Position numbers and translations under genes: made by a program. A stretch of DNA of 64,000 nt from Sycon ciliatum (lineage: Eukaryota; Porifera; Calcarea; Leucosolenida; Sycettidae): contig NC_088645.1 of the NCBI RefSeq assembly GCF_964019385.1, forward strand, positions 8,295,794 through 8,359,793, read 5' to 3'. The notes under the pieces were generated by a model. It had not been told where the DNA came from, made no database searches, and saw nothing but the letters and a program-made list of their open reading frames with translations. Shown here one piece after another: positions 2,245 to 47,834 of this stretch; positions within the stretch are counted from its first letter, which is position 1; each line of letters begins with the position of its first letter.

Positions 2245-2284
2245 TCTCCACGTAGGTTATTTATTATAACAATAATAATAATAA

Positions 2285-2428
2285 TAGCTCAGTGGTTAGA
2301 GCATTGCTCATGACAAGCAGGGTCCCAGGTTCGAGTCCTGGTGGGTCTGGCGTTTTTTTCTCTTTTCAGGCAGTTCACTTCCCCGACAGATCCTTTGAAT
2401 TTGAAGTTCTCCCAATCCTTTCCAAATA
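2285..2428 (+). mobile_element. tRNA-derived SINE copy (5' truncated)
   Basis: Begins with the A-box-like tagctcagtggttagagc, continues through a B-box (ggttcgagtcc) and shares its body with the SINE copies at 4.1-4.9 kb (the ctcttttcaggcagttcac segment). (ATT)n tracts lie on both sides. The first bases of the tRNA-like head (ggtccca) are missing compared with the 4756 copy. Transcription would be by RNA polymerase III from the internal boxes. Confidence 0.8.
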
Positions 2429-4057
2429 ATAATAAAGATAATAATAATAATAACTTGGGAAGATCCGAATGACAATATACATGTAAATGAACATAAAACT
2501 GGGATGTGAATGTACTGTTAGGGAAGAAGGGATCGAAGGGAAGGAAGCCCCGGCGGGAAGATTAGTGGGGACATGATCGTGTGTGATATTGTGATGGTCT
2601 GCAAGGTTGTCCAGGTGTTTTTGGGCAGCTGTTTGCCGGTTCTAGCCGGTCCAGGTCTATCTACGATTGGCGGGTTTCAAGTTGACCCATGGGAAAAGGC
2701 GGACATTACCAATAAGCAGTTGTCGATGTCAAACAACTCTCCTCAGTTACTCCTCCATGCCTTTTAATACAGGTGGAAGGGCGTGATAGTATTGAAGGAA
2801 CATTGGGAGTTACAGGTGTATGACGTACATGTACGTGAGAAGGTGGTGCGGCAGAGCTCCACCCAGATTGGAGTAGTGAAAGTTGTGCCTTATCCGTGCA
2901 AGCTGATTGGCTGAGCAAATCCACTCCCTGCAGGTAGGTGACTTGGGCGTCGTGACATTAAGAATAACATCAACACTAACACAGTTATGAGCACAAAGAA
3001 ACACAGGCATAATCGTGCACAGGTGTCGACAGAAAACGCCCCTGCATTTTGAAGTACCGGTCCAGTTTTCACATATGATAATTATGGCAATTCAGACAAA
3101 CACTGTCTTGCTCCGCAGCAGTGAGCTAATATTCTAGAGTAACACATGATTGCTCTCTAGATACAACCACCTATACAAAATTAACATCCCACGATAAGCA
3201 GAAGAACGTGTCTAGAAATGGAAAACACTACACAGAGGGAGCGCTGGGCCCGCCACTCCCTGAGATAAAGACTCTGCCCTCTCGTCAATCGTACAGATTT
3301 CATGAACAGGAATACTTCAACACAGTCAACTGAGGTGAATGGGCTGAACGTTTGCTTACGACAATGACATATTGGTCTGGGGATTTGGATCGTTTGGCCT
3401 TGGCAACGGTGGTTGAACCCACGGTTGTGAAGGAAGCCCTGTGCAAGTGAATGACTGGTATGCCGTGAAGGACTGGCTCCACATCAATGGTATACCGTGC
3501 AGGATTGGGTCAACGTCATGGAGGGGACACTGAGCGGCGGCGTATTGACAGTTACAGGTAGTTGAAAGGCAAACACTCTCACCGTGCACTGAATGCACGT
3601 ACACAGAACTCGAGTCTTATACTACATGTAAGTACTAGTCTTGTAGTTGTAGATCATTGTTATCCTAGCCTGAGCTGGTAGGACGTCCCCAGACCCCAGT
3701 ACAGTGCTAAACGCCTCGGCCCAGTGAAGCAATAATTATTCTATACCACATCATAAATGTTTGGTGTGGCACGTAGCAACGCTAACGCTGAGTGACAGCT
3801 GGTTTCAGGCTCGCTGACACTGTGACAGCTTTGTTCTGGCTTACTGACACACTAACCTGACCGCAAGTGTCCTATGCGCGTACACAGTAACTGGCTGATG
3901 CTGTCAACAACTAACTGTCAACTACTCGCTGTCAACAACTACTGACACGGCTGAGTTGCAAATAATGCAAAAAGCCTTTTTAAAAGGCTTTATGCACTGT
4001 TGACAGATGCGTCGACTCTGCTCCTGTCTAACAGGTTCAGGGAAGATGCGAGCTGTG
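2429..4057. other. Intergenic, no gene found
   Basis: No supportable gene. A small hairpin at about 3966-3995 pairs aaagcctttt with aaaaggcttt. Around 3790-3960 short imperfect repeats of ctgtcaacaact and tgacac units occur. Confidence 0.4.
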
Positions 4058-4113: not shown

Positions 4114-4879
4114 AATTCAAAGGATCAGTCGGGGAAGTGAACTGCCTGAAAAGAGAAAAAAACGCCAGACCCACCAGGACTCGAACCTGGGACCCTGCTT
4201 GTCATGAGCAATGCTCTAACCACTGAGCTATGGGACCAGGCTGAACCTAGAAGGCGCTGACAAGTTTTTCACTCCAAAGGCAGCTCACAACACGTGCCAC
4301 ACATACTGATGGCACTTGGGTCTTTTTCCCTCCCCCAGGGGACCAACCACGGTCAGTTTCTGGAAACTACCAGAGGTGAAAGAAAGTGATTAAATTTGGA
4401 AAGGATTGGGAGAACTTCAAATTCAAAGGATCAGTCGGGGAAGTGAACTGCCTGAAAAGAGAAAAAAACGCCAGACCCACCAGGACTCGAACCTGGGACC
4501 CTGCTTGTCCTGGTGGGTCTGGCGTTTTTTTCTCTTTTCAGGCAGTTCACTTCCCCGACTGATCCTTTGAATTTGAAGTTCTCCCAATCCTTTCCAAATT
4601 TAATCACTTTCTTTCACCTCTGGTAGTTTCCAGAAACTGACCGTGGTTGGTCCCCTGGGGGAGGGAAAAAGACCCAAGTGGCATCAGTATGTGTGGCACG
4701 TGTTGTGAGCTGCCTTTGGAGTGAAAAACTTGTCAGCGCCTTCTAGGTTCAGCCTGGTCCCATAGCTCAGTGGTTAGAGCATTGCTCATGACAAGCAGGG
4801 TCCCAGGTTCGAGTCCTGGTGGGTCTGGCGTTTTTTTCTCTTTTCAGGCAGTTCACTTCCCCGACTGATCCTTTGAATT
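4114..4879. repeat. 372-bp-arm palindrome of head-to-head SINE copies
   Basis: Arms 4114-4485 and 4508-4879 are reverse complements about a 22-bp spacer. I found one mismatch by eye (gcc versus ggc in the segment near 4310/4680). Each arm holds a tRNA-like unit: 4167-4237 on - and 4756-4826 on +. The unit has acceptor ends ggtccca and tgggtct, a 5-bp anticodon stem (ttgct with agcag) and the B-box ggttcgagtcc. The loop catgaca lacks the invariant T before the anticodon, so this is a SINE head rather than a working tRNA. A partial third copy lies near the centre. An inverted-read assembly artefact is possible. Confidence 0.85.
4756..4826 (+). mobile_element. tRNA-like head of SINE (right arm)
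   Basis: 71-nt tRNA-related unit with D-arm box tagctcagtggttagagc, anticodon stem ttgct/agcag around a 7-nt loop, and T-arm ccaggttcgagtcctgg. The acceptor stem has one T-T mismatch. Loop sequence and the shared downstream body argue for a SINE promoter head. Its mirror image is at 4167-4237. Confidence 0.75.
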
Positions 4880-16466: not shown

Positions 16467-17772
16467 GCAGGCTGTTGTGGGCGGCCAAGAGTCCTCCCTG
16501 CACCATATCCAAGCAGGGGTACCACAAGGTAGCATCCTTGGACCAACGTTATTCCTCCTGTACGTGAATGACTGCGAGGACACCTTGCCTGCTGGTGCTG
16601 AGCTTGCCACGTATGCAGATGACACGACACTATATCAGTGCATCTCTGCCACCGCCAGCATATCCGATTCTGCAGCACAACTCCAGGAAGCAGTGGACGC
16701 CGTCTCCCACTGGGGTTCCAAGTGGAAGGTCACCTTCGAGCCATCCAAATCTCAGGCCCTCATCATCGACCACCGCAAGCCTCCCCCAGCGTTCCCACCA
16801 GTGCTCTTCAATGGAGTGACTGTTCCTGAAGAGAAGGAAATTAAACTTCTGGGCATAGCATTCGACTCGCAACTGTCCTACGCAGCACACCTCCGGGCCG
16901 TGGCCTCAAAGGCTGCCCAACGCCTACACTTCCTGAGAAAGGTTGCGCCCCTGTTGGACTCCAGCGGCCGCACGGCAGTCTACAAAGGCTTCGTGCGGCC
17001 AACAATGGAATACTGCTGCCTGGTGTGGATGGGGTCAGGTACATCCAGACTGGACAAAATCCAGCACAAGGCACTGAAGGTGATTGGCCCAGGCGCCTGG
17101 CTCCCCAGCCTGAAACACCGCCGACTGGTTGCTGCGCTTTCGTTCACGTTCAAGCTGTCTTACCTTCCAACAACAAGCCCCCTGAAGCCCATCCTCCCAC
17201 CTCCAGCCAATCCCCGCCCAGCGGGTGGTCGATCCACTAGGTTAGCCACGGAGACTGCCCACTGCCACCCGCTCCAGCTCAAGTCGACGCTGCCCGTGCG
17301 CATTCGTAGCAGCCTCCAGGGTTCCTACCCAGACTGCATTATTCCCTTGTGGAACAGCCTACCAGCGACCATTCTACCAGCACGGCCGCAACCCAGCCAG
17401 CTCCAATTATTCAAAGAAAAATGCAACAAGTATCTGCTGCACCTGAACTGGCAAGCAGCCACCGACGCCCTATGAAACGGTTTAGACCAGTGGCTCACTA
17501 GCATCCTCCTCCCCCCCCCCCTTACCACAGTGTGACGTTATCTTTCACTCTGCTTCTCTCACGACCATCTACCCATTGTCCTTGTTTCTCACTATTATTC
17601 ATTTCCCCTCTTCCTCCTCTCTACATGGTTTTACTGCATTATGGCGCGCTTTGTCTGCGTAGACGCGGAGACCTTTGAGGTCGGCAGAGCAGCCTGGCCC
17701 CGCCACCACTTCTCGCACATATTCGGGAATATAGTGGACTTTCGTATAAAAAAAAAAGAAAAAAAAAAAAAA
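16467..17772 (+). mobile_element. 5'-truncated APE-type non-LTR retrotransposon with poly(A)
   Basis: The frame through 17,475 encodes the C-terminal half of a reverse transcriptase: GVPQGSILGPTLF (about 16,516), the catalytic YADDTTLY (about 16,612), then thumb and C-terminal region (LLGIAFDSQL, YKGFVRPTMEY) to a TGA at 17,473-17,475. A 3' UTR and interrupted poly(A) to 17,772 follow. Unit B has the empty site at 23,886 (gcatccaa directly joined to gacgt), which fixes both ends precisely. No clear target duplication is visible. It is related to, but distinct from, the element ending at 41,138. The frame is open but lacks the endonuclease and fingers, so it cannot act alone. Confidence 0.9.
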
Positions 17773-18567
17773 GACGTACTAGAGCTGATTCGCAGTTACT
17801 TGTAGAACGTCAGTACCGTCGGTCAGTGTCGTGCAATTATGTTATCGCATGAGCTGATGATAAAGTAACTGGTGGTGTTAGTGGATATTGTAGTTGTCCT
17901 CAGTTTTCTTTACTATAAATCAAGAAACCCTCGCTCAATAGTCTCGACAGTGTATTTTAACAAGTAACCAAGAGTTCGGCCTGAGTTCACCAGGATTGAT
18001 AAGAAGCGAATACAAGTAAAGGGTTGCCTTAGCTCTTCCATGCAGCGACTATGTCAGGTGAAACGGCTACACAAATGCCTAAAACTACACCTTTTCTGTA
18101 TTCACTTACAGGTACAAAAAGCTGTGTGGACCCTGGCTAGCGCCAGACGTCACTGAAGTAACGTCTTTTGCATAGCTACGGGAATAATTGAACTACGTTC
18201 TGTAGCTTTTGTGGTGTAGCTGGCGTGCGGATGACTGGCTCACTAGTTATTATTCGTATGAATATTGTTGTGGAGTCTTCTTTGTTTCTCTAGTCTGGGA
18301 CATGTTGGGCATCACTTCCATTCTTTGCACCACAATCTCAGCGCATGCTGTGATTAGCTTACTCAGTGCAACATTGTGAATTCGTACCATCACTGCATAA
18401 TTTTCTTCTTCTTCTTGTCTTCGTATTTCCTTTTTCTTCTTTCAATTTGTCTTCCGATGTTTCTATTTTGTTACTCCCTCACTGACTATGAATAACTGCA
18501 GAAGTATAGTATTCTCAGCTGATGTACATGTACATGACAGTCGTAGTCTGCAAAACGATAATGCATA

Positions 18568-20710: not shown

Positions 20711-20941
20711 CGCAATCTTCGCAGTGATGCATGCATTTCACTGGAACTTAATATACCCTTGGTTTAGCTACAAGTGACGCCCATGTCAACGGTGAGCAAT
20801 GCACACGCACGCTCCTCTCTCCGCACTAGTTTTCTAGTGAAAAAAGAAGAACCAAATGTTTACAAGTTATCCTTTGTTTGTGTCCAACACTAACCAATTA
20901 TTATAAGCAAGCAAGTGGATAACTAATTGCGAAGATTAGCG
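20711..20941. repeat. Segment inverted between the two duplication units
   Basis: Bounded in unit A by the inverted repeats gcgcaatcttcgca and tgcgaagattagcgc. The interior (20,723-20,930) appears in the opposite orientation in unit B (about 45,067-45,283) while its right flank keeps its orientation. It behaves like a DNA element or hairpin-flanked segment that flipped after duplication. Confidence 0.75.
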
Positions 20942-21807
20942 CCAGCACGATATATTTCGGTGTGCTTGGTGAGAGGCGAAAATAATAACGCCGCAAGATG
21001 GATGTGTTGTCTCAACGTCCCGTACAGGCACGGCGCCTCTATTTGCTGCGCATAATTTCCACATCTATTCCCATCGCTCCTGTCTTATAACCCTGGACAC
21101 GTGCCACTAGTATCGTTATCTGAAGATTGGTGAATAACAGTAGACCTCGGTGGAACAGGAAGACTATAGGTAGCCTTGTGCCAGAGCTGACTTGTGTAGT
21201 TTCAAAGTCATAATTTTAGCACTTTGAATCTCACCACAGGGGTGCAACTCTATCACTGGATACAGGCGTCACTCGCCACTAAGCATTCCTCAGTCACTTT
21301 GTGCGCAACATCTTTTTTCCCATTGTACCCAAGCCTTTTGTAGGAGCGAAAGACACACAAGACACACAAGCGCAACCTTAACAGGAAGAAAATGAGCTAA
21401 AATGGAGGGAGGGAGCTAACATTGGCGCAACAGTACACCATTACAAGCACTGGCATTGCTGGCATGACTGATTCATATCAAACGTATACTCTGACTTTGG
21501 CTCACTTTCCCCTTCGACACATTCTGAGCATTTGTAGAGACAGCCTCTATTGTTCCTATGCCGACTACTGTTGAGCAGCATCTCCCCACCGAGTCTGCAT
21601 CAATGGAAGTCTGACACTCAGTGCACATTCTAGTTTGCAACTCTGAGTGCTAACGTCGACTGGTCCACAGAACTGCCTCGCTATCTCGTGCTAGTGTCTG
21701 CATACAGTGTCTGACCAACCTGTTTCAGTTTGTAGTGTTGCACCATTGGAGAATAGTGTGCTGTATCTCCCCAACACTGTGAGTGAACCACTCTGCACTG
21801 AAGCACA

Positions 21808-23148
21808 ATGGCCCAATACCTTGGCTGCTTGGGCCAATTGCCTCTGAACCGCAAGCACGTCCTCGACCTCTTCACGAACCGGTCTGGCCAGCCGTTCGTT
21901 TGCAAGTTGAACCGTCGTCGTTCGGGGTCAACATCCGACGTGCCCTTCACCTCTGCTGCTGATCTGGGACCAGATAGTTTCCCCACATTGGATGGTATGG
22001 ATGACTATGCTGAGCTAGAGGAGGGCAAGGATGATGCGGAGACAGCACGGACGGCTGCTGCTGGCAACGACGGTGAAGAGCAGTGTCGCACGTGTAACTG
22101 GCACATGACGCAGAACATTCACCTGGTCGTCGAGGAGGACGCCCTCAACGACACGAACGGCGATGGTGCATTGGCCCGGCAGGCGAAAAAGGAGATAGAG
22201 CGCGTAGTCAACAGTGCCAGCGCCTCACGTGCACCACCAAGGCTGGGAGCTGTCAGTAGTTCTGAACCTAGTTCTGCTCGCAATGGTCAAGTCATGGCTG
22301 TGATAGTTCCGGGCAAGGAAGATCAAGAGATAATGAGTAAGGATTCGTCCAGGTCGGTGTTTCAAACGGCATCTAGTGTATGTCAGGATATTGTTGCCGA
22401 CATACAGTCCGGCGGGGAGACAGAGTTTATATTTCACGAGGTGGTCGTGAACGTGGAGCGCGACTTTAACCGCGACGAGGCCTGCCTGAACGTTCTCCAG
22501 TCGGTTCTGAGCACTTTCGGTTCTCCCTGCTGCAGTACCTGCACAAAACTGGTTGCTATCCGCTTTGTCTTCCACTCCTGCAAGCTAATCTTCTTCCTGC
22601 CTCACGGCTGGATGACGGAGTCAATGACGCGCGCCATTGTCCGTATCAGCAATTTGGACAGCACCTATTCCGTCTACCTTAACTTGCAAAACAGCCAGGT
22701 CCAAGGCACACTGCCTGTGTCGGCAATGCAGCCGCTTGTTGACTGGCTCGAGGGGAATCCCCGTATCTCCTTCGTGCAGCTGCCCAAGTGTCCTAATCTT
22801 CTGCTGCGTGTAGTGAACGCGGCACTTAAGAACGGCAGCCTTAAGGAGTTGATCATGACGCCGACGCAGGAACCCGACAATCAGCGAGTCCTGCACATCA
22901 TACTCAACCACTACACGACGTCGGAGCGCTGCGTACCGCGTCTAGCCATACCCTGTCCCACGCCGGACGTGCTCATGGTGCTGGTGCTGCTCATTCGCGA
23001 CTTTCAGAATGGTCTACGCCGCCTCACCTTGTTCGGTCCACCCGACGAGGTTGCCAAGGATACGATGAGTGTCGAGTGTGCAGAGATCGCCGTGGAGATG
23101 CGCGCAATGGTCGACAGGAAGTTTGTGATTGAGTTCCGTAATCCATGA
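21808..23148 (+). CDS. Unrecognised 446-aa protein, copy A
   Basis: I do not recognise this family. The frame is intact and intronless, with a good start context (gcacaATGg) and a stop at 23,146-23,148. The first 20 residues are compact and cysteine-bearing. Residues about 50-90 are acidic. A CRTC motif lies near residue 94, and a Ser/Ala-rich stretch near 125-155. From about 195 onward the protein looks globular, mixing hydrophobic beta-like and helical segments (for example VVVNVERDF, a CCSTC cysteine cluster near 248, LVDWLEGNP). The alternation of VQLPKCPNLLLRVVNAAL and SLKELIM faintly recalls leucine-rich-repeat-type folds, but this is weak. No signal peptide or membrane segment is evident. 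Its duplicate at 46,154 differs at 14 residues, 13 of them in the first 200. Lineage-restricted gene or old retrogene are both possible; conservation of both copies suggests function. Confidence 0.8.
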   Translation: MAQYLGCLGQLPLNRKHVLDLFTNRSGQPFVCKLNRRRSGSTSDVPFTSAADLGPDSFPTLDGMDDYAELEEGKDDAETARTAAAGNDGEEQCRTCNWHMTQNIHLVVEEDALNDTNGDGALARQAKKEIERVVNSASASRAPPRLGAVSSSEPSSARNGQVMAVIVPGKEDQEIMSKDSSRSVFQTASSVCQDIVADIQSGGETEFIFHEVVVNVERDFNRDEACLNVLQSVLSTFGSPCCSTCTKLVAIRFVFHSCKLIFFLPHGWMTESMTRAIVRISNLDSTYSVYLNLQNSQVQGTLPVSAMQPLVDWLEGNPRISFVQLPKCPNLLLRVVNAALKNGSLKELIMTPTQEPDNQRVLHIILNHYTTSERCVPRLAIPCPTPDVLMVLVLLIRDFQNGLRRLTLFGPPDEVAKDTMSVECAEIAVEMRAMVDRKFVIEFRNP

Positions 23149-23365
23149 CACTGTAGCATAGTTAGGGATAGGCCATATCGGAGATGATCGGCAAACTTAC
23201 TGATCTTCTTCTACCTTAGGGATCATCCATCAAGATTTTAGTCACCACTTTCTTTCTTGCTTCTTGTGTACTGTTGCATGGTCAGTATATGTGAGATTGA
23301 TGTGCACATCCAGTGGGCTGTGGACATGTTTGTGTGCGTGCGTGTGTGTGCGTTCCTGCATGCAT

Positions 23366-23451
23366 GTGTGTGTGTGTGTGTGTTTGTCTGTGTGGTGTGT
23401 GTGTGGTGTGTGTATGCATGTATGTGTGTATGTGTGTGTATGCGTGTATGC

Positions 23452-23478
<27 letters not shown>
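23366..23478. repeat. (TG)n-rich tract after gene copy A
   Basis: Interrupted tgtgtg repeats with gcatgtatg variants. The matching tract in unit B is at 47,670-47,834, with different unit numbers. Confidence 0.9.
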
Positions 23479-23483
<5 letters not shown>

Positions 23484-24308
23484 CCACAGTGGATATTGTG
23501 TATTGTATCTCACTTAAACTTAATTAAGATGATCCTCACTTCTTGGCATAGTTGCCAAGCTGCGGGTCTGAGAATATCAGTATATTCTGCATTGGCTGAC
23601 ATTGATTTTTGATTGTGAACATGATTGTATGTGCGTGTGCATGTAATTTGTTGTGGGGTCATATTGAATATTTGGGGTATTTTGGTGTAGGTGCAGATAC
23701 TACATGCTGCTGCTGGATTTCCGCCGCTATTTCTATTGTCATCGCTTATTTCTATTGTCATCGCTTGAAGAGAATTCTGGCCATATTCTAACAATTTCCC
23801 GTACATTTCCCGTACCTTCCCCTCCTATGTTATACATGCAACTTAGAGCCTTCCAAGTAGGAAGGCTGTTGGAGTGCGCATCCAAGACGTGCTAGAGCTG
23901 ATTGGCAGTTAGTTGTAGAACGTCAGTACGTATACCGTCGGTCAGCGTCCTGAAATCTTATCGCATGAGCTGATGATAAAGTAACTGGTGGTGTTAGTGG
24001 ACATTGTAGCCGTCCTCAGTTTTCTTTACCATAAATCAAGAAACCCTCGCTCAATAGTTTCGACAGTGTATTTTAACAAGTAACCAAGAGTTCGGCCTGA
24101 GTTCCGACACCAGGATTGATAAGAAGCGAATACAAGTAGAGGGTTGCCTTAGCTCTTCCATGCAGCGACTATGTCAGGTGAAACGGCTACACCAATGCCT
24201 AAAACTACACCTTTTTTGTATTCACTTACATGTACGGTCCATGTACAAATAGCTGTGTGGACCCTGGCTAGCGCCAGACGTTACTGACGTACTGAAGTAT
24301 AAAGATAG

Positions 24309-24623
24309 TGTAATGGGTAGCCGAGTGGTAGGCGCGGTGAAATCAACAAGAATTACTTTTATTCTACTTTCAGGTACACACCTGAGATATAATTATTAGT
24401 GAAAGAAGAAGCGGCAAAATAACTGACTTTCTCTCCGGTGCACACCTGGAGGTTGAATAGCTCGTTATTATCAAAATCTCATCTTCATCAAAACAGAAAT
24501 GCGCAGCCGCTTTTATGCAGCAGACGCCGCACGCTTACATACGGAGATACACTAAATATGCATCAGGCAAAGCTCCGTATTAGTTCCGTACTGCTTCCGT
24601 ATTGGTCGGACAGGGATACTACA
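24309..24623 (-). repeat. 3' LTR of the small LTR element
   Basis: Begins TG and ends CA on the minus strand and contains aataaa (gtagaataaaagtaa). Its last 70 bp match 25,532-25,601 almost perfectly. Confidence 0.8.
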
Positions 24624-25112
24624 CCCTCCCTTCCTACAGATAATCACGCCCTCGTGATTTTCAAAAAATTAGTGAAGAGTTATGAACACAGCGTCAACCG
24701 GAAGATGGCAAATTATATCGGAAATGATAACGTTTAGAGTAGACAGAAGAAATGAACTGATAACAAATCATAAAGTAGAAGTAAAAGCACACCAGGTTCA
24801 CACCATCTCACGGGGTCAAAAGGGGAAAGAACTGTCCTCCAAATAGGACCTGAAAAACTACAGCACTCTTGCTGCACAACGCTGGCACAACCCGCCAGGA
24901 ACATCGCAGTTCAAAAAACCTAACTGAATACACTATAACTATAAGGGGCGTTGTCACACACATTGTCCCACGTTAGCTGGGTAAGCCGTGGCTCACCATG
25001 ATCAGACGCCTACCAAACTAAACTGGAGTCACACACTCGCATAAAGGAAGACTGAAAAGAACAGGGAGACTGAAGGAAGAGAGGAAAGAAAATGCCATAC
25101 CTAGAATCAGCG

Positions 25113-25465
25113 TTAGTAACCACGGCGGCGGCTGAAGCTACGGCCGAGGGCAAGCCAGGTTTTATCTTCATCTTGGTTGAGCCGGTCACTCAGAGCGGCT
25201 AGCTCGGCGTCAGACAAATGACCTCCCTCCTCGTCTTGAATCGTGGTTTTCACATTGTCGATAGCATCGCTTTGCGTGACGTAAAGAGTGATGGTCTAGC
25301 CAGGAAGAGTGTTGACGAAAATCTGCATTCCACCACGGAGGCGAAGTACCAAAGTGAAGAGTGGGCTCCTGCTTCCGACTGCGTGCCGGCGAAAATCAAA
25401 CGCTGCTGGTCTTGGGGAATACCCTCCCTTGATTCGTCGCAGGGAGCTGCAGCGGGTTGAGCCAT
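25113..25465 (-). pseudogene. Decayed polyubiquitin fragment captured in an LTR element
   Basis: From the ATG at 25,465 a short leader is followed by EGIPQDQQRLIFAG (25,426-25,385), nearly identical to ubiquitin residues 34-47. A frameshift and loss of about ten codons follow. In the next frame (from 25,355) LVLRLRGG runs straight into MQIFVNTLPG, an in-frame stop where ubiquitin has Lys11, then TITL and IDNVKTTIQDEEG. This is the head-to-tail junction of two ubiquitin monomers, as in polyubiquitin genes. Several acceptor lysines are altered (K6 to N, K11 to stop, K29 to T, K33 to E, K48 to T). After the second IQDEEG the frame continues with an unrelated 36-residue tail (HLSDAELAALSDRL, TWLALGR) that weakly recalls a Death-fold helix pair, ending at 25,113. 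It cannot make ubiquitin now. It occupies the gag position just after the primer-binding site. Confidence 0.85.
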
Positions 25466-25758
25466 GGGGGTCTGGGGTCGAATCACGTTGTCTACACGTT
25501 GTTTTATTTAAAACTACACCGCTGCCACCAATGTAATGGGTAGCCGAGTGGTAGGCGCGGTGAAATCAACAAGAATTACTTTTATTCTACTTTCAGGTAC
25601 ATTGCTTTGTGAGTTGATTTTTTTTTTTTTGAATCGTCGACACTGCATTTATTCGCACTGCAGAAAAGCAACCAACAGAAAATCACGGAATCATAGCAAA
25701 CAAAACAAGATCATCGGATAATAAAAGTGTGGCTAGACACGGCTACTCCGCAAGAGTC

Positions 25759-26520
25759 TCAGTCACGCAACTGACAGTCGTTGACTGCCAGCACAACAGG
25801 AGTGGCAGCATCCAAACGACTGCGGTAGGGAGAAGCACGGTGACCACGGAGGCTCATGTTGCAGGATCGAACCAAAGCAAAGGAGACAAGAGAGCGGATC
25901 CAGGACATGGCGGAGGAGTAGGGTTCATGCCGCTTCTCCGAAACCATATGGCTAAGACGCTTCAGGAAAGCGTGGGCTACCTTGCCGCACCCACCAGATG
26001 CACTGAATACCAGTGGGAGAAAGGAAGCATGCTCCACCTCCCTGACGCGTTCTTCGTAGGCCCTTCTCTTCTGCTGTTCGTGCTTGGCATAGGTGGACGC
26101 GGGAGTTGAGGAAGTGTTCGAGCGCGCATGAGGGTTAAAAACCCGAACATCACAGAACGTGTGCTCAAAACGACTTCCCCAGACACCAGATGCCGCCACA
26201 TCAAGACGAGCACCATCTTCCAAGATGGCAGAGCGATACCGGAGCCGTTCACCCTCCAGGGGCTGCAGAGGAGGTTCTATCTTCACATCCGTTGCCACTT
26301 CACGCAGTAGGTCGGCTGTCAGGTCGCGGATCGTGTTATGGCGGAGAGCCGGGTATCCACCAGTTGGGCACGAAAGAGCATGGCTGGTGTTAAATGCCTT
26401 GCCACACACACAAGTGGATGGCAGGCGGGGAGGGACCCAGCCGAACCGCAGACAGAGTGCGTCTCTGAAGGCGCCTTTGTGGAGGACAAACCCGAACTGC
26501 TTCAGGGGCCGGCAAGTGAG
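25759..26520 (-). pseudogene. Restriction-like endonuclease domain of the RLE retrotransposon
   Basis: Continues the reverse transcriptase frame after one nonsense codon. Contains a zinc-knuckle-like CGKAFNTSHALSCPTGG followed by RHNTIRDL, then the PD-(D/E)xK-type core ARLDVAASGVWG and FCDVRVFNP, then KRRAYEERVREVEHASF and a conserved C-terminal helix. It ends at 25,759, shortly before the poly(A). Confidence 0.85.
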
Positions 26521-28359
26521 TCAGTTGGACGCTCCTTTCTCGGCCGCCATCCCCAGGGTTCGCTGGGTGGGCACATCACATGTGGCCAGGAGCTGACTGG
26601 CTTGGTCTCGAGCGGCTCTCCTGGTTGCTGCTGCTGCAGTTAGCTTGGCAGCATGGATGGTGGTGGCCACTTCGTCCATGTTGGTGTCTTGGTCCAGTAT
26701 CCGGCTCACGAGGATGTTGGTGACAGCGACAGACATATTGTATTGGTCCGTCAAAGACCTCGGGTCAATGAGACCAAGGCCACCTTCTCGACACGGGAGG
26801 GACAGTATGGCGCGCTCTTCGTCACCAGGTGCGGGGCGACTGGTTAGAGCAGGGATGAACCGCTGTCGGATGGAGTGCTCCAGCGGGTCTAGCAGTCCGC
26901 TGATGCCTGGGACCGTCCGGGCCACAAACGACCACTTGTGGCGGAGGCCATGAATAAAAGCAGCGTATGCCGCTTGTGGCTGAGTGGTGGCGAAGTCAGC
27001 CAGTCGTCCAACCTCTAGCGCCCATGTCTCTACCTTCTCTGTGACATATTGCTTGCAGAATTCGGGAGACCCAAGTACCGCACCGAAATGCCGCCAGCCA
27101 TCCGTGCGAATCTGGACTGCCGTGTCAGCAAACAGGGATTCTGCTTCCTGAAGATACTCCGGCTTCACAACAAGAACCGACTTGGCATCATTGGGGAAGT
27201 ACCCATATGCTGGGCCTCGTTGCTTAAGCAGTGACCACCAGTGATGCAGCTTTCGAATGGTGGAAGCGGCAGTGGAGTCGTCTGCATACCACGACTGGAG
27301 TGCTCCGCTCTGAGACACTTCCTGGATGAGAGGAACGGTTGCCAGGGCATACATAGCCATGGCTAGTGGATCTCCCTGCGTGGTGCCTTCACAAGACAGG
27401 AGACATTCACCATCTACAAACAGCCGAGTCGGGCTGCGGTAGCTGTTGATCAGTGCCGGAGCAATGGTGGGGCAGGTGTGCTGGATATTGTGCAGTGAGA
27501 CAGCACGGTTAAGGGAGTTAAATGCGTTTGACGCATCTGCAAACAGAACGCCTTCCGCCTCGTCTTCCTGAAATGCTGTTTGCATAGCATGTATTGCTGC
27601 TTCTATGCCACACTCTTGACCCGCACATAGCTGTAGGCAGCCAGCTGACTTCTGTATTGAAGATGAGGCGCATCGCAGGATGGCTTTCCCGATGATGCGA
27701 CGGGCCACTTCTCCGATCCCAATTGGTCTGACACCCGGTTGTTTATCTAGTGGTATGAGTCGGCTGGCCAAGAAAGCTTCCAATGCTGTGGGGTCAACAT
27801 AGGACGAGGCGATGCGGCGGGCACAGCTGGCCAGTGAATCGCAGAGGTCATCAGATGCTCCGTGAAAAGCTGTGCACATTCTGCGCCACGACGCAGCGTC
27901 TAGTCCAGAGGGTCCTGCAGCACCTTGTGTGTGGAGGGCTGCCTCGCGTATGGCCTCCCGGGTGATGCTGGAGTAGAGAACTGGATGCGGTGACGGAGGG
28001 ACATCTCCTGTAATCATCGCCGTCGCATTTGCTGGTGCCGCGGGAGGGTGTTTGCTCTTGAGAATGTCCAGAACTGTCTGGCCATTGATGGTGGTGCCCA
28101 CGGAGTGTACTCCGCCCTTCTGGTCTTCAGACAACGTGCGGATTGCAGCACTGGTTTTGCCTGTGGTGATGAGGTTGGCAAAGGTACGAGCTTGGTCCTG
28201 CGCTGAGCCTTGCCTTGGAAGGCTGTGGAAGATTGCACTAGAGATTGGATAGTCCGGGCTTCTATCATCAGTTCGTTGATGTTGCCTTCCTCCCAGAGTA
28301 GCATGCGGCGCTGTAGACAGGTGATGTGCTCCTGTCTGGTTGCAGAGCGGTGCGGACAT
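26521..28359 (-). pseudogene. Reverse transcriptase of the RLE retrotransposon
   Basis: Frame of about 600 codons with recognisable RT blocks: GVLFADASNAFNSLNR (fingers/palm, first catalytic Asp), GTTQGDPLAMAMYAL, and WYADDSTAA (catalytic YADD), then a long thumb and linker with AAYAAFIHGLRHKWSF. It ends at the premature TGA at 26,521-26,523; the endonuclease continues in the same frame beyond. The upstream part of the same protein lies in another frame at 28,014-28,520. Confidence 0.85.
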
Positions 28360-29334
28360 TGCAGGAGCAGCTGAGTGGCCACTGCAGCTGCTTTCAGAGA
28401 CTTGCCTTCACCTGCACATTTGTCACCAAACTGTTTGTAGAGTGTTGCAAGGAGCTTCACAAACTTTGATCTGACTGACCCGGAAGGGAGGAAAAGTAGG
28501 TTAGGCCTAAAATGCACCACTTCTTCATATGCAGCATCTACAATTTGTGCAGACGAGTTTGAATCGTGGGTCCCAACTGTGATGTTGCAATTTGCTTCCA
28601 GATATAGGGGAGCTGGGCTGGATCCGGTGCTTGGGGCTCCTCAGTAACAGATTGGCTTTGTGCTAGGTTGGCCAGCACCTCTGCATCATGCCCTAGGGTG
28701 CCGTCATTACTGTCAACTCGATCTGTGGCACTGATGCTTGCTGCGTGCTGCTGGTCCAGTATGTTCCATGCTAGTTGTTGAGAGCTCGACACAGGCATGG
28801 CATGCAGGTCAACCCTATTGACGTCACTGGAGGTGGTGGCAGCTATCTGACCAGGTTGTGAATGTGAGCATGGTGCCGTTGGTGGTCCTGTGGATGTCGG
28901 GTTTCGGCATTCCGTGAGCAGGGTTTCAGTGAGTGCAGCAGCTACCAGCTCTTCCGGGGTGGCTACTGAGGATGACGGTTGGTTGTCGGTACTTGTATCT
29001 GTCACTGCTACGGGTACGGGTGACGGTTGGGATGTCGAGGGGCTGTTGTTTCGGCATCTGCTTTTTTTCCCGGGAGACAATTCTGACACTCGCGGCCCTC
29101 CTTCTTGCATTCACACCGAACGCAGGTGCCATTGCCGTTGCACCGGCAACAAGTGGCACTCTGCATCAGTGGGCTTGCAGGAGAGACGCGCTGAGGCCTG
29201 AAAATCCACAGAAAACTACAGAGCTCGAAAAACCAATCCTACTCCCACTCTGATCTGCAGTTTTTTCTTTGTGAGTTGAGTGCGGTTTACGTTTTTCGAG
29301 CTCCGTCTGGTGAGCATTTGCCAGCTGATTCGAT

Positions 29335-36440: not shown

Positions 36441-36629
36441 AATACAAACTGCACCAACGAAAAGCCACTGCGAAGTGACAGGAATGCGGTCCAGCACAAC
36501 ATTTTTGCGGACGCAAAAAGTTGTGGGGAAATCCCAAAATCGGTGCGATTTTGCATGAGCCCAAATGTTCAGGTTACCCACAAAGACACAAGCTTTCCAA
36601 CTCTCTTTGGCCGTTGGAAAGCGTACCGT

Positions 36630-39600
36630 TGCTTCTGGTGTACGGTTCGCAACCTTCAAGCTGGCAAGTGGCAAGCGCATCCCCAGCTTTGTGCGTACCA
36701 GCGACGGCAAGAGCACATTTCGAGTTTTTCACGAGGGTCAATCTCCCACTTGTAGAGTATGCGATTCTACCACCCATATTGCGAGAAACTGTCCGAAGCT
36801 GGAACAGCGAGGTAGAACTCGCACAAAAATCGCGCACGACACCTCTAACTCAACTGGTACGAACACATCTGCACCGAGCACACTCACCTACTCTAGTGCC
36901 TTGCAGGGAGTGCAAGCTCCCACTTCTAAGTCCCCACCTGAAAAACACGTGGGCTCGCATGGACTTACTCAGCACCAGTCAGCCATTGGCACTTCGGTTC
37001 AAGAAGCTGCAATGAAGTCCCCACCCTGTGCTTCCACATCCGACACCACACAACAGGGAGGCACAAAAGAAAACCATGAGGAAGAGAGTCCACACAGCAG
37101 GGCCACCGGCACCGGCGGAATGAGCAACGAAACCACGTCGAAGGCACCAGACATCCCTAATAACAGCAGCAGCACTGAGGAGGAGGGGGACGACGATGAC
37201 AATGACGACGACGCCCCTGCTCCTTCTTCTGATGTCGAGCGAACCGAGCTGTTAATTGCTAGCGCTCTAAAAGCATCCAAACGCCAGAGGCAATCCATAT
37301 CACCGGAGTACAAACGTTCCGGGCAAGACAAAAAGAAGCTGCCAAGTTTTTCAAGCAGAAAGCCCCCTAGCCGGAAGCCCGTAGACCATGCAATCATTGT
37401 TTCTCTATGCACTCACAACGTTTTTTGTTTGTTTTTCATTCTAATTTCTACTGTTACTATGTCATTGCTAAACACTCCCACCCCTCTACCTGCATTACCA
37501 AGTGCATCAGCAGGTCCGGCTCGATCCCTCCGGATCCTTGTGACAAATGCGTTCAGTATCACAAACAAGATGAGTAACCTGCAGCATACAGTTTCCCAGA
37601 ACGATGTCGACATCGCTATTGTCACAGAGACTAAGTTAGGAAATGGCACTCTGGACTCGGATATCTCACTGCCTGGATACACTGTTGCTCGAAAGGACCG
37701 TAACGAGAACGGGGGTGGTGTCGCCATCTGGGCTAAGTCCGAGCTCTCCTTCACGTACCTCTCCCACCTGGAATGTTCAGCGCACGAGGTTCTGTGGGCG
37801 TCTGTCTCCACACAATGCGAGAGCCGAGTCATTATCGGTGCCGTCTACCGCCCAGGGTCATGTGCGGAGTCAGATGTGTCCCTGATTGACCACCTAGATG
37901 GTGCCCTTGAGGGTGTTCGCCGCCTTGGCACCAATATAATCTTGGCTGGGGATTTCAATGTCCACAACGAGGAGTGGCTTCGCAGCACAAAGACAACTGT
38001 GGCTGGGGAAGCTTTGGAAGTGTTGTGTGCAACCCACCACCTCGACCAGCATGTACACCATCCAACACGCGGTGAAAATGCGTTAGACTTAGTTCTTTCC
38101 GACTTCACTACCCCAGTATCAACCAACGTGCTTGCCCCCCTCGGCAGGTCCGACCATGCCGTTTTGATATGCAACTTCCAAGCAGTTTCCGCCCGCCGCG
38201 ATCCAACAACCTCCCGCAAGGTGTGGAAATACGATAGTGCTGACTGGAACAGACTCAGGGCATTTTACCGCGGTCACGCTTGGCAGTCGATAATGTCAGA
38301 CGATCCCACTCTGTATTGCGAGCGATTAACCTCGGCCATCCTGCAAGGCATGGACCAGTACATACCCACCAAAGTCTTCACCACTCGTTCCTCTGACCCT
38401 CACTGGTGGACTCCAGAGTGCACCATTGCTGAAGAGGCAAAGGAGAAGCAGTGGAAGAAGTGGAGGCAGAACCCGCACCGCGATGACCTCAAGACCTCCT
38501 TCATTGCTTCTGTCAACCGAGCTGTTCACACACAGCAGAGCGCCCATATGTCTAGCGTCAATCGACTGCGCCACACACTCAGCTGCCAGTCACTTAGTGA
38601 TAAACAGTGGTGGACAAACATGAAGAAAGCCACTGGCGCTACACGCAACTCCGCTGATGTTCCTTTGCTAGTCGATAGCCATGGCAAGGAGTTCCACACC
38701 TCAGCAGAGAAGGCTGAGTGCCTGGCACAGCATTTCTCCTCGAAGTGCAGCTTGGGTGACCAAGAACTGACTATCAATGACCTTCCTGCGGTGACCATCC
38801 CGACCCACGAGCCATTAGAGCACGTCCATTTCCGAGAAGCTTCAGGCCAGCGGCATCTTGCAAGGCTAGTCCCATCCAAGGCATCTGGACCTGACAGCAT
38901 TCCATGTCGGGTATTGAAAGAGTGCTCTAAGGAACTTGCTGCTCCCATCACGAAACTGTTCCGTGTTAGCTTTCGTGCCGGTGTTGTACCGTCCCAATGG
39001 AAGCTCGCCCACGTTGTCCCGGTATACAAGAAGCCACCTCAATCTAGGCCATCCAATTACCGGCCTGTGTCCCTGCTCTCCGTTTTATCCAAGGTCATGG
39101 AGTGTATTATAAACCAACAAGTCACCAATTTCCTGGAGCGCAACGACCTGCTGCCTGACAGCCAGTTTGGTTTTAGACGTGGCCGTGGCACAGCTGACCT
39201 CCTCACAGCACTCCAGAGCGAATGGGTGCAGGTTGTAGCTGAGGGAGGCTGTGTCCCAGTAGTAGCAATTGATATTGCCGGTGCGTTTGACCGCGTCTCT
39301 CACGTCGGCCTCCTCAACAAAGCAGAGCGAGTAGGCATCGGCGGACCTCTTCTCTCTTGGCTACGCGACTACCTGAGCAACCGCTGCCTAAAGGTGGTAA
39401 CTGGAGGCCACGCTTCCAAGAAGTACCCGATCACTGCCGGAGTGCCCCAGGGCAGCGTCCTGGGCCCCACACTCTTCATATTGTTTGCTGCCGATATCGA
39501 CCAATGCCTCTCGCATGGAGTAAAGCTCAGCTCTTTCGCCGATGACACTACCGTGTACAGCCTGATCAGACCAAACGACAACCTCCAGGAGAAGGCAGCA

Positions 39601-40390
39601 TCCTTACAGACAACCCTCAGCAATCTTGCCGCATGGGGCCAGCAATGGCGGATCCAGTTCGAGCCCACCAAGAGCCAGCGCCTGATTTTGTGCAATGCTC
39701 GAAAGCTTTCCACCAACCACTTTTGCCGGCGAGATTATTCCGGACTCGGACCACCTAAAGCTGCTTGGAGTTACATTCGACTCTAAGCTTGGGTTCCAGC
39801 GCCATATTCATGCTGTCGCTGTCAAGGCCAGCCAGCGCCTGGGATTCTTGCGCCGTGCCGCTTGGCTTCTGGGTCATGAGGGCCGCCTTGCCGTGTATAA
39901 GGGGTTCATTCGGCCCATCCTGGAGTACGCTCCCCTAGCCACCATGTGTGCAGCCCAATCCCACCTAGCACGCTATGACAGGGTGCAGGAGAAGGCAATG
40001 CGCATCATCGGACCTGGCACGATCCTTCAGAGCCTGCAGCTCAGGAGGGCAGTCTCAGGGCTTGAATATGTGTACAAGTTGCACTACATTAAGGGTCCAC
40101 CCCAGCTGACAGCCCTCCTCCCACCACCGTCGGCGCATGCGCCTACTCCAAGAACCCGCCGACAACTAGCTTCTCGCCACCCTTTCCAGTTGCAATGGCC
40201 ACTTGCTCGGACAGCACCGAACTACCTACTGAGGTCATTCCCCTACACCCTCATTGCGGCATGGAACGACATTCCTGAGCAAGCCATCCCGGAGCCTCCG
40301 GCATCGAAGGGAATGCAGGCCTTCAAGTCTCGCATTTGTCAGCACCTGATGCGCCAAGATTGGTTGTGGGCGACAGCATTCCATGGCTAA
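36630..40390 (+). pseudogene. ORF1 C-terminal part, APE endonuclease and reverse transcriptase
   Basis: From 36,630 the frame carries ORF1's GVRFATF region and a CCHC knuckle (CRVCDSTTHIARNC, about 36,751-36,792), a charged linker, then from about 37,525 an APE endonuclease (VTETKL, GAVYRPGS, LAGDFNVH, LGRSDHAVL) and a reverse transcriptase (VPVYKKPPQSRPSNYRPVSL, GVPQGSVLGPTLF, FADDTTVYS at about 39,535). ORF1 and ORF2 share one frame without a stop; ATG at 37,459 could start ORF2. A one-base frameshift near 39,695-39,720 moves the remainder (LLGVTFDSKLGFQRH to 40,390) to another frame, so the copy is inactive. Confidence 0.85.
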
Positions 40391-44685: not shown

Positions 44686-46153
44686 AAAAAGGTGTATTTT
44701 ATGCCCATGCTCCATACATGCAACTGAGGACACTCAACACAGAGTGCTGAGCATGGATCCTGTGTAGCAACAGTGCGCTACTAAGCAGTTACATGCTATA
44801 CCCATTGGGCGTAGCTGAGCTGGGTACAAATCTATCGCATCCTTTCAGTGCAGACCGGTGCACGCACGCCCCCAGAACCCCTCCGTGCTACGAACGTCCC
44901 AGTTCATTTCGCCATGAACTCACTGCATACCCTGTGCATCCTGTGAGAAGACCTCAGTGTCTGTTGGGATTGCCGCCTGCTAGAATAATAAAATGCAGTA
45001 GAAAAGAATACAAATAGAATACGACTCGGATTGAGAGCCAAGGATTAAAGTGAAGAAAGAAAGGACCAAATGTTTACAAGTAATTAGTTATCCAGTTGCT
45101 TGCTTATAATAATTGGTTAGTGTTGGACACAAACAAAGGATAATTTGTAAACATTTGGTTCTTCTTTTTTCACTAGAAAACTAGTGCGGATAGAGGAGCG
45201 TGTGCATTGCTCACCGTTGACATGGGCGTCACTTGTAGCTAAACCAAGGGTATATTAAGTTCCAGTGAAATGCATGCATCACTGCGAAGATTAGCGCGAG
45301 CACGATCAATTTTGGTGTGTATGGTGAGAGGCGAGAATAATAACGCCGCAATATGGATGTGTTGTCTCAACGTACCGTACAGGCATGGCGCCTCTATTTG
45401 CTGCGCATAATTGCCACATCTATTCCTATCAGTCCTGTGTTATAACCCTGGACACGTGCCACTAGTATCGTTATCTGAAGATTGGTGAATGACAGTCGAC
45501 CTTGGAGGAACAGGAAGACTATAGGTAGCCTTGTGCCATAGCTGACTTGTGTGGTTTCAAAGTCATAATTTTAGCACTTTGAATCTCACCACAGGGGTGC
45601 AACTCTATTACTGGATACAGGCGTCACTCGCCACTAAGCATTCCTCAGTCACTTTGTGCGCAACATCTTTTTTCCCATTGTACCCAAGCCTTTTGTACGG
45701 GCAAAAGACACACAAGCGCAACCTTAACAGGAAGAAAATGAGCTAAAATGGAGGGAGGGAGCTAACATTGGCGCAACAGTACACCACTACAAGTACTGGC
45801 ATTGCTGGCATGACTGATTCATATCAAACGTATACTCTGACTTTGGCTCACTTTCCCCTTCGACACATTCTGAGCATTTGTAGAGATAGCCTCTATTGTT
45901 CCTATGCTGACTACTGTTGAGCAGTATCTCCCCACCGAGTCTGCATCAATGCAAGTCTGACACTCAGTGCACATTCTGGTTTGCAACTCTGAGTGCTAAC
46001 GTCGACTGGTCCACAGAACTGCCTCGCTATCTCGTGCTAGTGTCTGCATACAGTGTCTGACCAACCTGTTTCAGTTTGTAGTGTTCCACCATTGGAGAAT
46101 AGTGTGCTGTATCTCCCCAACACTGTGAGTGAACCACTCTGCACTGAAGCACA

Positions 46154-47494
46154 ATGGCCCAATACCTTGGCTGCTTAGGCCAAATGCCTCTGAACCGCAA
46201 GCATGTCCGCGACCTCTTCACGAACCGGTCTGGCCAGCCGTTCGTTTGCAAGTTGAACCGTCGTCATTCGGAATCAACATCCGACGTGCTCTTCACCTCT
46301 GCTGCTGATCTGGGACTAGATAGTTTCCCCACATTGGATGGTATGGATGACTATGCTGGGCTAGAGGAGGGCAAGGATGATGCAGAGACAGCATGGACGG
46401 CTGCTGCTGGCAACAACGGTGAAGAGCAGTGTCGCACGTGTAACTGGCACATGACGCAGAGCATTCACCTGGTCGTCGAGGAGGACGCCCTCAACGACAC
46501 GAACGGCGATGGTGCATTGGCCCGGCAGGCGAAAAAGGAGATAGAGCGCGTAATCAACAGTGCCAGCGCCTCACGTGCACCACCAAGGCTGGGAGCTGTC
46601 AGTAGTTCTGTACCTAGTTCTGCTCGCAATGGTCAAGTCATGGCTGTGATAGTTCCGGGCAAGGAAGATCAAGAGATAATGAGCAAGGATTCGTCCAGGT
46701 CGGTGTTTCAAACGGCATCTAGCGTATGTCAGGATATTGTTGCCGACTTACAGTCCGGCGGGGAGACGGAGTTTATATTTCACGAGGTGGTCGTGAACGT
46801 GGAGCGCGACTTTAACCGCGACGAGGCCTGCCTGAACGTTCTCCAGTCGGTTCTGAGCACTTTCGGTTCTCCCTGCTGCAGTACCTGCACAAAACTGGTT
46901 GCTATCCGCTTTGTCTTCCACTCCTGCAAGCTAATCTTCTTCCTGCCTCACGGCTGGATGACGGAGTCAATGACGCGCGCCATTGTCCGTATCAGCAATT
47001 TGGACAGCACCTATTCCGTCTACCTTAACTTGCAAAACAGCCAGGTCCAAGGCACACTGCCTGTGTCGGCAATGCAGCCGCTTGTTGACTGGCTCGAGGG
47101 GAATCCCCGTATCTCCTTCGTGCAGCTGCCCAAGTGTCCTAATCTTCTGCTGCGTGTAGTGAACGCGGCACTTAAGAACGGCAGCCTTAAGGAGTTGATC
47201 ATGACGCCGACGCAGGAACCCGACAATCAGCGAGTCCTGCACATCATACTCAACCACTACACGACGTCGGAGCGCTGCGTACCGCGTCTAGCCATCCCCT
47301 GTCCCACGCCGGACGTACTCATGGTGCTGGTGCTGCTCATTCGCGACTTTCAGAATGGTCTACGCCGCCTCACCTTGTTCGGTCCACCCGACGAGGTTGC
47401 CAAGGATACGATGAGTGTCGAGTGTGCAGAGATCGCCGTGGAGATGCGCGCAATGGTCGACAGGAAGTTTGTGATGGAGTTCCGTAATCCATGA
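46154..47494 (+). CDS. Unrecognised 446-aa protein, copy B
   Basis: Intact duplicate of the protein at 21,808, same start context and stop. The 14 amino-acid differences include Leu/Met, Leu/Arg, Gly/Glu, Pro/Leu (twice), Arg/Trp and Glu/Val in the N-terminal 200 residues and one Ile/Met near the end. In DNA, about 20 differences fall in the first 600 bp but only four in the last 740 bp, with a run of more than 500 identical bases. Both copies kept full frames after duplication. The upstream 350 bp (tgtctgaccaacctg and following) are also conserved between units and probably hold the promoter and 5' leader. Confidence 0.8.
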   Translation: MAQYLGCLGQMPLNRKHVRDLFTNRSGQPFVCKLNRRHSESTSDVLFTSAADLGLDSFPTLDGMDDYAGLEEGKDDAETAWTAAAGNNGEEQCRTCNWHMTQSIHLVVEEDALNDTNGDGALARQAKKEIERVINSASASRAPPRLGAVSSSVPSSARNGQVMAVIVPGKEDQEIMSKDSSRSVFQTASSVCQDIVADLQSGGETEFIFHEVVVNVERDFNRDEACLNVLQSVLSTFGSPCCSTCTKLVAIRFVFHSCKLIFFLPHGWMTESMTRAIVRISNLDSTYSVYLNLQNSQVQGTLPVSAMQPLVDWLEGNPRISFVQLPKCPNLLLRVVNAALKNGSLKELIMTPTQEPDNQRVLHIILNHYTTSERCVPRLAIPCPTPDVLMVLVLLIRDFQNGLRRLTLFGPPDEVAKDTMSVECAEIAVEMRAMVDRKFVMEFRNP

Positions 47495-47669
47495 CACTGG
47501 AGCATAGTTAAGGATAGGCCATATCGGAGATGATCGGCAAACTTACTGATCTTCTTCTACCTTAGGGATCATCCATCAGATTTTAGTCATCACTTTCTTT
47601 CTTGCTTCTTGTGTAGTGTTGCATGGTCAGTATAATGTGAGATTGATATGCACATCCAGTGGGCTGTGG

Positions 47670-47720
47670 ACATGTGTGTGTTGCGTGTATGTGTGTGTAT
47701 GTGTGTATGTGTGTGTATGT

Positions 47721-47759
<39 letters not shown>

Positions 47760-47834
47760 TCTGTGTGGTGTGTGTGTGGTGTGTGTATGCATGTATGTGT
47801 GTATGTGTGTGTATGCATGTGTGTGTGTGTGTGT
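47670..47834. repeat. (TG)n-rich tract after gene copy B
   Basis: Interrupted tgtgtatg/tgtgtg repeats, homologous to 23,366-23,478 but of different length and pattern. Confidence 0.9.

Follow-up and report, generated by a model that had tools for sequence, protein, structure and literature searches.

A short LTR retroelement of the sponge Sycon ciliatum with a probable chimera of two host mRNAs, for an acidic protein and ubiquitin, as its cargo

How did a broken piece of ubiquitin come to lie between the LTRs of a small retroelement, and does anything keep it there? The locus that raises this question is found in a 64,000-nucleotide stretch of Sycon ciliatum DNA (RefSeq assembly GCF_964019385.1, contig NC_088645.1, positions 8,295,794 to 8,359,793 of the forward strand), which as a whole is referred to here as the window. 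The element at 24309-25601 is a short LTR element on the minus strand with a broken ubiquitin piece inside (Table 1). The initial annotation had described it as an LTR retroelement with captured polyubiquitin in the position of gag, and its placement of the ubiquitin junction and of the LTRs proved exact: the direct repeats at 24309-24378 and 25532-25601 are identical over 70 bp, and tblastn (E 2.8e-18) returned LVLRLRGG/MQIFVNTLPG*TITLYVTQSDAIDNVKTTIQDEEG at 25352-25224 and EGIPQDQQRLIFAG at 25435-25367. The order of primer-binding site (PBS), ubiquitin, polypurine tract (PPT) and complete LTR was likewise confirmed, as was the lack of pol in the element, for which the reading frames and Pfam were consulted. 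The PBS, TTGGTGGCAGCGGTG, presumably matches tRNA-Leu, a candidate primer. No second copy of the element was found within the 64-kb window, and an Rfam scan of positions 24200-25700 gave 0 matches at E values up to 1, including none to a tRNA-like sequence, which is a feature of Helenus elements.

Table 1. Features of the LTR element in the window and of the LINE beside it
Feature	Position	Strand	Basis or remark
Complete 3' LTR, family A, TGTAGTATCCC...CCCATTACA	24309..24623	-	315 bp; two-LTR relatives
Polypurine tract AGGAAGGGAGGG	24624..24635	-	Relatives have the PPT at the same place
Remaining putatively host-derived cargo	24690..25480	-	Approximate borders, transferred from the block common to LTR families A and B
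Remainder of tail reading frame to TAA	25113..25157	-	
Putative piece of host acidic protein gene (LSDAEL..LSD.LNQ), start of tail	25158..25235	-	Placed by analogy with L066
Start of next ubiquitin repeat	25236..25328	-	Codon 11 is TAG (25296-25298)
Ubiquitin C-terminal half, to LRLRGG	25329..25426	-	32-nt deletion and 1-nt insertion
GGAGGG, internal-deletion junction (CDESR / EGIPQDQQ)	25422..25427	-	
Leader reading frame MAQPAAAPCDESR	25427..25465	-	
Primer-binding site TTGGTGGCAGCGGTG, adjoining the 70-bp LTR copy	25517..25531	-	Place and form of a PBS; relatives
5' LTR remnant, the last 70 bp	25532..25601	-	100% identical to the 3' LTR end
LINE-type retroelement (RVT_1), poly-A end	25618..29266	-	Flanks CTTTGTGAGTTGA at 25605-25617 and 29267-29279

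The ubiquitin piece in the window contains no intact 76-residue unit. Its 1-nt insertion shifts the frame, the codon for K11 is a TAG stop, and the TAG is followed by 24 more ubiquitin-like residues and then the tail. The changes that had been reported at K6, K11, K29, K33 and K48 are all present, but that at K33 is an effect of the junction described below and not a mutation; K63, beside the 32-nt deletion, is changed as well (CAG). Furthermore, the tail, described at first as non-ubiquitin sequence, begins as the host acidic protein discussed below; no source was found for its remainder at 25113-25157. GGAGGG stands at both ends of the window ubiquitin and was considered as a capture junction; the left one was rejected because database relatives identify it as an internal deletion.

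The neighboring LINE has an intact 13-bp target duplication on both sides, 3 bases outside the LTR end, which indicates that it did not cut the 5' LTR; it inserted beside the truncated LTR and not into it. The window copy itself is without a target duplication, because its 5' LTR is truncated. Several other features were recorded in the window. A repeat of ~400 bp at 17771-18160, where it comes after an A-rich run, and at 23884-24291 is 89.5% identical and ends 17 bp before the LTR element. At 4114-4879 lies an almost perfect palindrome, 98.3% identical to its reverse complement over 769 columns, that contains two tRNA-Ser(UGA) genes in opposite orientation; part of this palindrome recurs inverted at 2284-2453. 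A segmental duplication (20928-23808 and 45283-48159) is 95.8% identical over 2.9 kb, each copy with a 448-residue frame that matches a RASSF RA domain weakly, below the cut-off. At 36559-39783, a LINE frame of 1075 residues with endonuclease and reverse transcriptase runs without interruption.

The expectation that the element is multicopy was borne out when the Sycon ciliatum assembly (538 Mb, 313 contigs) was searched with the window element as the query. This search gave 1335 first-look candidates, a number that is not one of confirmed copies; 40 were scored and yielded 96 matching rows, with LTR matches not confined to the window. Among 30 fetched loci, 29 had at least two LTR matches (L020 had a single one), and both outer ends were complete in 26; an imperfect LTR end was seen in L002, which is the window copy, and in L016 and L025. 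Exact target duplications, of the type left by an integrase, flank 25 of the 26 two-ended copies (4 bp in 21 and 5 bp in 4), the exception being the disrupted copy L018. Within the LTR pairs of these 25 copies, at most 10 of 311-364 sites differ, and 9 pairs show no difference, which indicates recent transposition. Paired LTRs with TG...CA ends, a PBS and a PPT were found in 26 copies, with the qualification that the sequence at the PPT position of disrupted L018 is not a PPT. No forward ATG frame in the 26 interiors exceeds 174 residues; thus, none of them holds pol or a gag-pol of its own, and the element is non-autonomous.

The 26 interiors comprise 18 short ones (887-902 bp; 969 bp in L022), 7 long ones (1096-1191 bp) and the disrupted L018. 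The long interiors contain an extra segment, which starts with a signal-peptide-like stretch, MFLAFLGLALLISLQHSQG (judged by eye), and continues into an acidic run; in these copies the segment follows the leader frame, and it is deleted in the window copy. A database protein, P0009, has the leader frame of the window fused directly to the signal-peptide/acidic segment, showing that the short form derives from the long one by an internal deletion. The window copy is therefore an internal-deletion derivative that has lost the signal-peptide segment and part of the ubiquitin. With 8 further loci fetched beyond the first 30, a set of 38 (L002-L039) was available, in which the 32-nt ubiquitin deletion was found in 32 loci and the extra T in 20. 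Codon 11 of the second unit was TAG in 35 of the 38 and TAT in 3, and TAT needs at least two changes on a tree whose bootstrap was not settled; we therefore rejected the stop as a late mutation, and TAG looks like the older state. The copies that we read keep the ubiquitin and the same junctions, in place of the ubiquitin-free copies that a later insertion between the LTRs had been expected to leave.

Tandem arrangements were also seen. At C5:31971431-32320678, four long-form copies with nearly equal scores follow one another at steps of 94-147 kb, and the two that were read, L032 and L039, do not differ in the ubiquitin region; the four probably represent a large tandem segmental duplication. 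At C226:469938-474569, four matches to the database protein P0050 (see below) at 1,465 bp spacing, equal in score and frame length, are a tandem array of the cargo or of the element. A pol element at L070 was considered as the autonomous partner and rejected, since it has its own terminal repeats and no type A or B LTR there; the type A LTR match at this locus lies 3' of the pol element, on the other strand, with a cargo copy. Long frames with an rve domain are many in the genome (best 150 of 3665 candidates scored).

A search of the genome with canonical ubiquitin, in which the best 150 of 1102 candidates were scored, returned 12 canonical host units (two polyubiquitin arrays and ubiquitin-L40), one ubiquitin-S27a exon and one host protein with multiple ubiquitin-like domains (L072). 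Most of the other scored matches were of the cargo type, covering residues 20-76 or nearly so, and the commonest open-frame length listed among them was 147 codons. That copies with an open ubiquitin frame would exist had been anticipated, and 16 of 18 newly read cargo loci (L052-L069) have a frame of 124-125 residues that runs through ubiquitin residues 31-76 into MQIFVNTLPG and then TAG, which makes the TAG at codon 11 the usual end of the frame. The frame begins with a signal-peptide-like stretch (judged by eye), and its last ten residues before the TAG vary in some copies. Even these open copies carry only ubiquitin residues 31-76 plus 10 and no intact 76-residue unit. The frame is shorter in L061 and has an inner TAG in L062, and L053 and L054, 14 kb apart, have the same frame. 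LTR sequence of type A or B was present at 17 of the 18 loci; L064 had only a 59-bp LTR-like match.

Three further matches were set aside: a 1815-codon "ubiquitin" frame on C8 is a run of N, C4:24139160 (98% to ubiquitin 34-76) is the ubiquitin-S27a exon and not cargo, and a donor role for L072 is without support. L072 has, at 1289-3688 on the minus strand, an 800-residue host frame with several ubiquitin-like domains in a row (judged by eye). Two 174-residue database frames, P0022 and P0023, have ~50 residues ahead of the cargo start, with a weak match to a membrane protein, below the cut-off, and thus point to additional upstream sequence in some copies.

The source of the sequence around the ubiquitin emerged when a protein database was searched with the region of the signal peptide and acidic run (50 proteins returned out of 56 candidates). 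One of these is P0050, which NCBI lists for Sycon ciliatum as 'transcription initiation factor TFIID subunit 7-like, partial'. It shares the signal-like start and the acidic run with the cargo but has no ubiquitin, and near its end it contains LSDAELDALSDKLNQEED, the start of the tail sequence. Its residues 37-102 match C109:1371-1568 at 100% (C109 is 13,353 bp long), the one near-identical place of a P0050-type gene in the genome; the other 149 scored rows were 59-69% identical. Here, a 593-bp intron with GT..AG ends lies between the exon for residues 22-36 and that for residues 37-102. Exon A ends CTGGAG/GTAGGT and exon B starts CTTGTAG/ACTCCG, and the element reads CTGGAGACTCCG without the intron, indicating that a spliced RNA was captured; the interior thus contains intronless host coding sequence between LTRs, as in Bs1-like mRNA capture. 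In L066, host exon B aligns on either side of the ubiquitin, over 111 columns at 78% identity and over 78 columns at 82%; between these blocks, L066 lacks 16 nt of the acidic run. Exon B on C109 has no ubiquitin. An identity of only 78-82% between host gene and cargo means that the actual donor may have been a paralogue that is lost or unseen. The signal-peptide exon of the host gene was not found in L077 or in 1.2 kb beyond it.

The ubiquitin lies inside the acidic run and spans residues 31-76 followed by about residues 1-32 of the next unit. When it was compared with the host ubiquitin genes, as had been proposed, the nearest of the 12 host units for both parts was in the C1 array (L040) in every copy compared (17 rows, 15 distinct places). 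D24 and T28 already occur in the host ubiquitin and therefore do not count as changes that arose in the element. K33E falls on the right boundary, at which the host acidic gene has GACGAGGAGG; it is a junction effect. The two donors resemble each other at both boundaries, with CAAGAC(A/G)AGGA at the left and GAC(G/A)AGGAGG at the right, so that short similarities at the junctions, as in Bs1-like mRNA capture, were found by sequence comparison without a shuffle control. The exact switch points are uncertain, given the 16 missing nucleotides and the repetitive purine-rich context. Altogether, these alignments indicate that the cargo combines two host mRNAs, that of a secreted acidic protein being interrupted by one ubiquitin repeat. 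The earlier view that a small LTR element had captured a host transcript is upheld to this extent, but polyubiquitin alone does not account for the cargo.

Other origins for the tail were rejected, namely a diverged ubiquitin (shuffle tests of four tails in two modes, p 0.04-0.45) and a death domain (no Pfam or PDB support), and AlphaFold models of the 71-residue frames had a mean pLDDT of 60, which is too low for a comparison of folds. No useful match came from plasmid, viral or prokaryote collections. One contig labelled as an uncultured Olsenella bin contains a ubiquitin N-terminus (L001, 5001-5114; 47% to the query), which is probably foreign DNA in that bin.

Three loci, L052, L057 and L058, have a second kind of LTR (family B), TGTAGCGTATA...GGCCCGCTACA, with the same PBS core as family A and with 4-bp target duplications, whose borders at the TG...CA ends were read by hand because the script did not place them. 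The LTRs of the two families align over only 50-55 bp, whereas family B copies and L066 share one cargo block of 1,023-1,045 alignment columns at 93-97% identity. To judge from this comparison, the same cargo of ~1 kb resides in two LTR families with unrelated LTRs. In 100-column windows of the L058-L066 alignment, identity was 96-100% in the frame, 94-99% in the part that follows and 88% and 84% near the end of the block; the frame is thus not clearly more conserved than the remainder.

The reading that we consider very probable is that this is a non-autonomous LTR retroelement whose cargo, a chimera of two host mRNAs, was put together by template switching and has spread as a passenger. The element would supply an RNA with LTR, PBS and PPT, and an autonomous partner would supply the proteins in trans. 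During reverse transcription in the partner's particles, the enzyme may have left the acidic-protein RNA for the polyubiquitin RNA at a purine-rich stretch, which encodes acidic residues in one RNA and QDKEG in the other, and may have returned at the same stretch one repeat later. Entry and exit at the same stretch of successive repeats would explain why about one repeat length is present. A similar template switch could have exchanged the cargo between the LTR families. The element would spread because it keeps its LTRs, PBS and PPT and borrows the proteins in trans, and the cargo would be a passenger that is now decaying.

Alternatively, the chimera could first have been a host gene. A polyubiquitin repeat might have recombined into the acidic-protein gene, and the spliced mRNA of the fusion might then have been captured in one step. 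The final product alone is seen, both of its sources are host genes, and a P0050-type gene has one near-identical place in the genome, all of which would suit such an origin. However, it is that C109 copy whose exon B lacks ubiquitin, the cargo loci L052-L069 carry type A or B LTR sequence with the single exception given above, and the host ubiquitin rows examined, a part of the best 150 of 1102 candidates, were polyubiquitin, ubiquitin-L40, the ubiquitin-S27a exon and the multi-domain protein, with no such fusion among them. We regard a fusion in the host as a minor possibility, and rather unlikely.

Less likely still, the junctions arose in DNA, through unequal exchange or repair between purine-rich repeats, and not through reverse transcriptase. 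The acidic run and the codons of ubiquitin QDKEG are alike, and the four C5 copies at their 94-147 kb steps fit DNA duplication at that place, but the missing intron calls for an RNA step for the acidic part anyway.

These alternatives concern how the cargo arose; another question is whether its protein matters. It seems quite improbable to us that the cargo is an expressed, secreted gene of the element, in which a signal peptide is followed by an acidic run and by half of ubiquitin without K48 and K63, the lysines on which chains usually form, and that helps the element or has been co-opted by the sponge. If this were true, the acidic run might bind calcium, and the frame would have been kept open and handed between LTR families. 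Acidic secreted proteins of Sycon spicule-forming cells, namely Triactinin, Diactinin and Spiculin, are described in the passages cited (PMC5390275, PMC12419799).

A ubiquitin fusion that works as a Gag-like or helper protein and is kept by selection is, in our judgment, highly improbable. Many copies are open through the signal peptide, the acidic run and ubiquitin 31-76, and the open-frame copies L056 and L057 have LTR pairs without a difference over the 277 and 311 bp that could be aligned. Among 16 frames (the short one of L061 and 15 full ones), the signal peptide and linker had a pN/pS of 0.61 and ubiquitin 31-76 one of 0.05; between LTR families the values were 0.49 and 0.08, respectively. 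As the 16 frames were picked by their similarity to ubiquitin, the low ubiquitin value is biased by this choice. Against selection, the variable columns in the signal peptide and linker of these frames number 19, 16 and 15 of 70 at codon positions 1, 2 and 3, and in 12 long copies, which came from the window-based search and some of which have indels, they number 23, 22 and 23 of 70, with a pooled pN/pS of 0.65. The ubiquitin varies at 25 of 46 positions, including R72, R74 and G75, in 19 database proteins, which were kept from 34 (P0050 left out, and proteins from an earlier search not among them) for an in-frame ubiquitin passing a filter of 36/46 identities that itself favors conserved ones. 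Residues other than the majority one made up 4.9% of the ubiquitin, 4.0% of the signal peptide and 9.1% of the linker in these 19; as ubiquitin varies about half as much as the linker, there may be a weak constraint.

Furthermore, all 9 window-like copies with identical LTRs, found with the short form of the window as the query, are without an intact frame, 8 through the short-form deletion and L030 through a broken frame. No Gag family, and thus no capsid or nucleocapsid domain, was among the Pfam matches at E values up to 1 or 10 (8 frames; 4 and 6 proteins). The proposal that the cargo acts as a Gag-like protein is therefore not supported, given these Pfam results and the signal-peptide-like start of the frame. 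Nor is there support for the suggested role in particle budding or turnover: copies that moved recently include some that lack the frame, and coding and non-coding parts of the cargo diverge about alike; these two results do not support a needed protein. We conclude that the protein is needed neither in cis nor, as far as shown, in trans. Loss of lysines was also considered as a functional signature and rejected: the Fisher test behind it (p 0.0046; fixed change at 5/8 lysine sites versus 10/73 others) was post hoc and counted duplicate rows as well as the K33 junction effect. A bases were changed at 4/16 places within lysine codons versus 5/43 elsewhere, and K29, though changed in all rows, became T or M.

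Finally, insertion of a processed pseudogene between the LTRs by LINE machinery at a later time is hardly credible, since the cargo borders in the window show no poly-A tract or target duplication, aligned copies share the cargo junctions and the interval from PBS to PPT consists almost wholly of cargo, even if the window has reverse-transcriptase frames in three places and the element adjoins a poly-A-tailed LINE.

The passenger chimera can be set beside several known systems. Tan and co-workers reportedly described how LTR elements retropose host mRNA when the template is switched at microsimilarities. In the passages cited, this process is documented for invertebrates and vertebrates (PMC5408686); the proposed mechanism is the same, but its products there are retrocopies, whereas here the chimera makes up nearly the whole interior of a family that has spread. 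Bs1 of maize is an LTR element whose interior, as outlined in two accounts, consists of pieces of three host genes (PMC13317346, PMC5408686), and the element studied here is alike in being an LTR element with pieces of host genes in its interior. It differs from what is outlined there in that it is a sponge element with other genes, with one donor inside the other and with the same cargo in two LTR families.

TRIMs, among them Helenus and Ajax, are characterized in part of one account as short LTR elements with PBS and PPT and without pol, and animal Helenus elements as having 4-bp target duplications, using tRNA-Leu in some cases and reaching 1,263 bp at the longest (PMC10886601). Compared with the TRIMs so characterized, the sponge element, likewise non-autonomous, is longer, at ~1.5-2.05 kb, and carries a captured coding sequence with its frame. 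For the Veju TRIMs of wheat, abnormal template switching is reported to have put foreign sequence into a TRIM and so produced a longer subfamily (PMC13317346); the inserted DNA is given there as of unknown origin, while both donors can be named here. In a limited PMC subset, the titles and openings of abstracts listed showed no report of ubiquitin captured by an LTR element or of Sycon retroelements as a subject. The known kind to which the element belongs is LTR-mediated mRNA capture.

For annotators, the element is a warning that ubiquitin-domain entries from the Sycon ciliatum genome can be transposon cargo. It is also a place to measure how long a captured coding sequence stays open under little or no upkeep. 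In an early-branching animal, it offers a readable case of LTR elements building new chimeric sequences, in which the loss of the intron and both junctions can be read and the product has spread and moved between LTR families.
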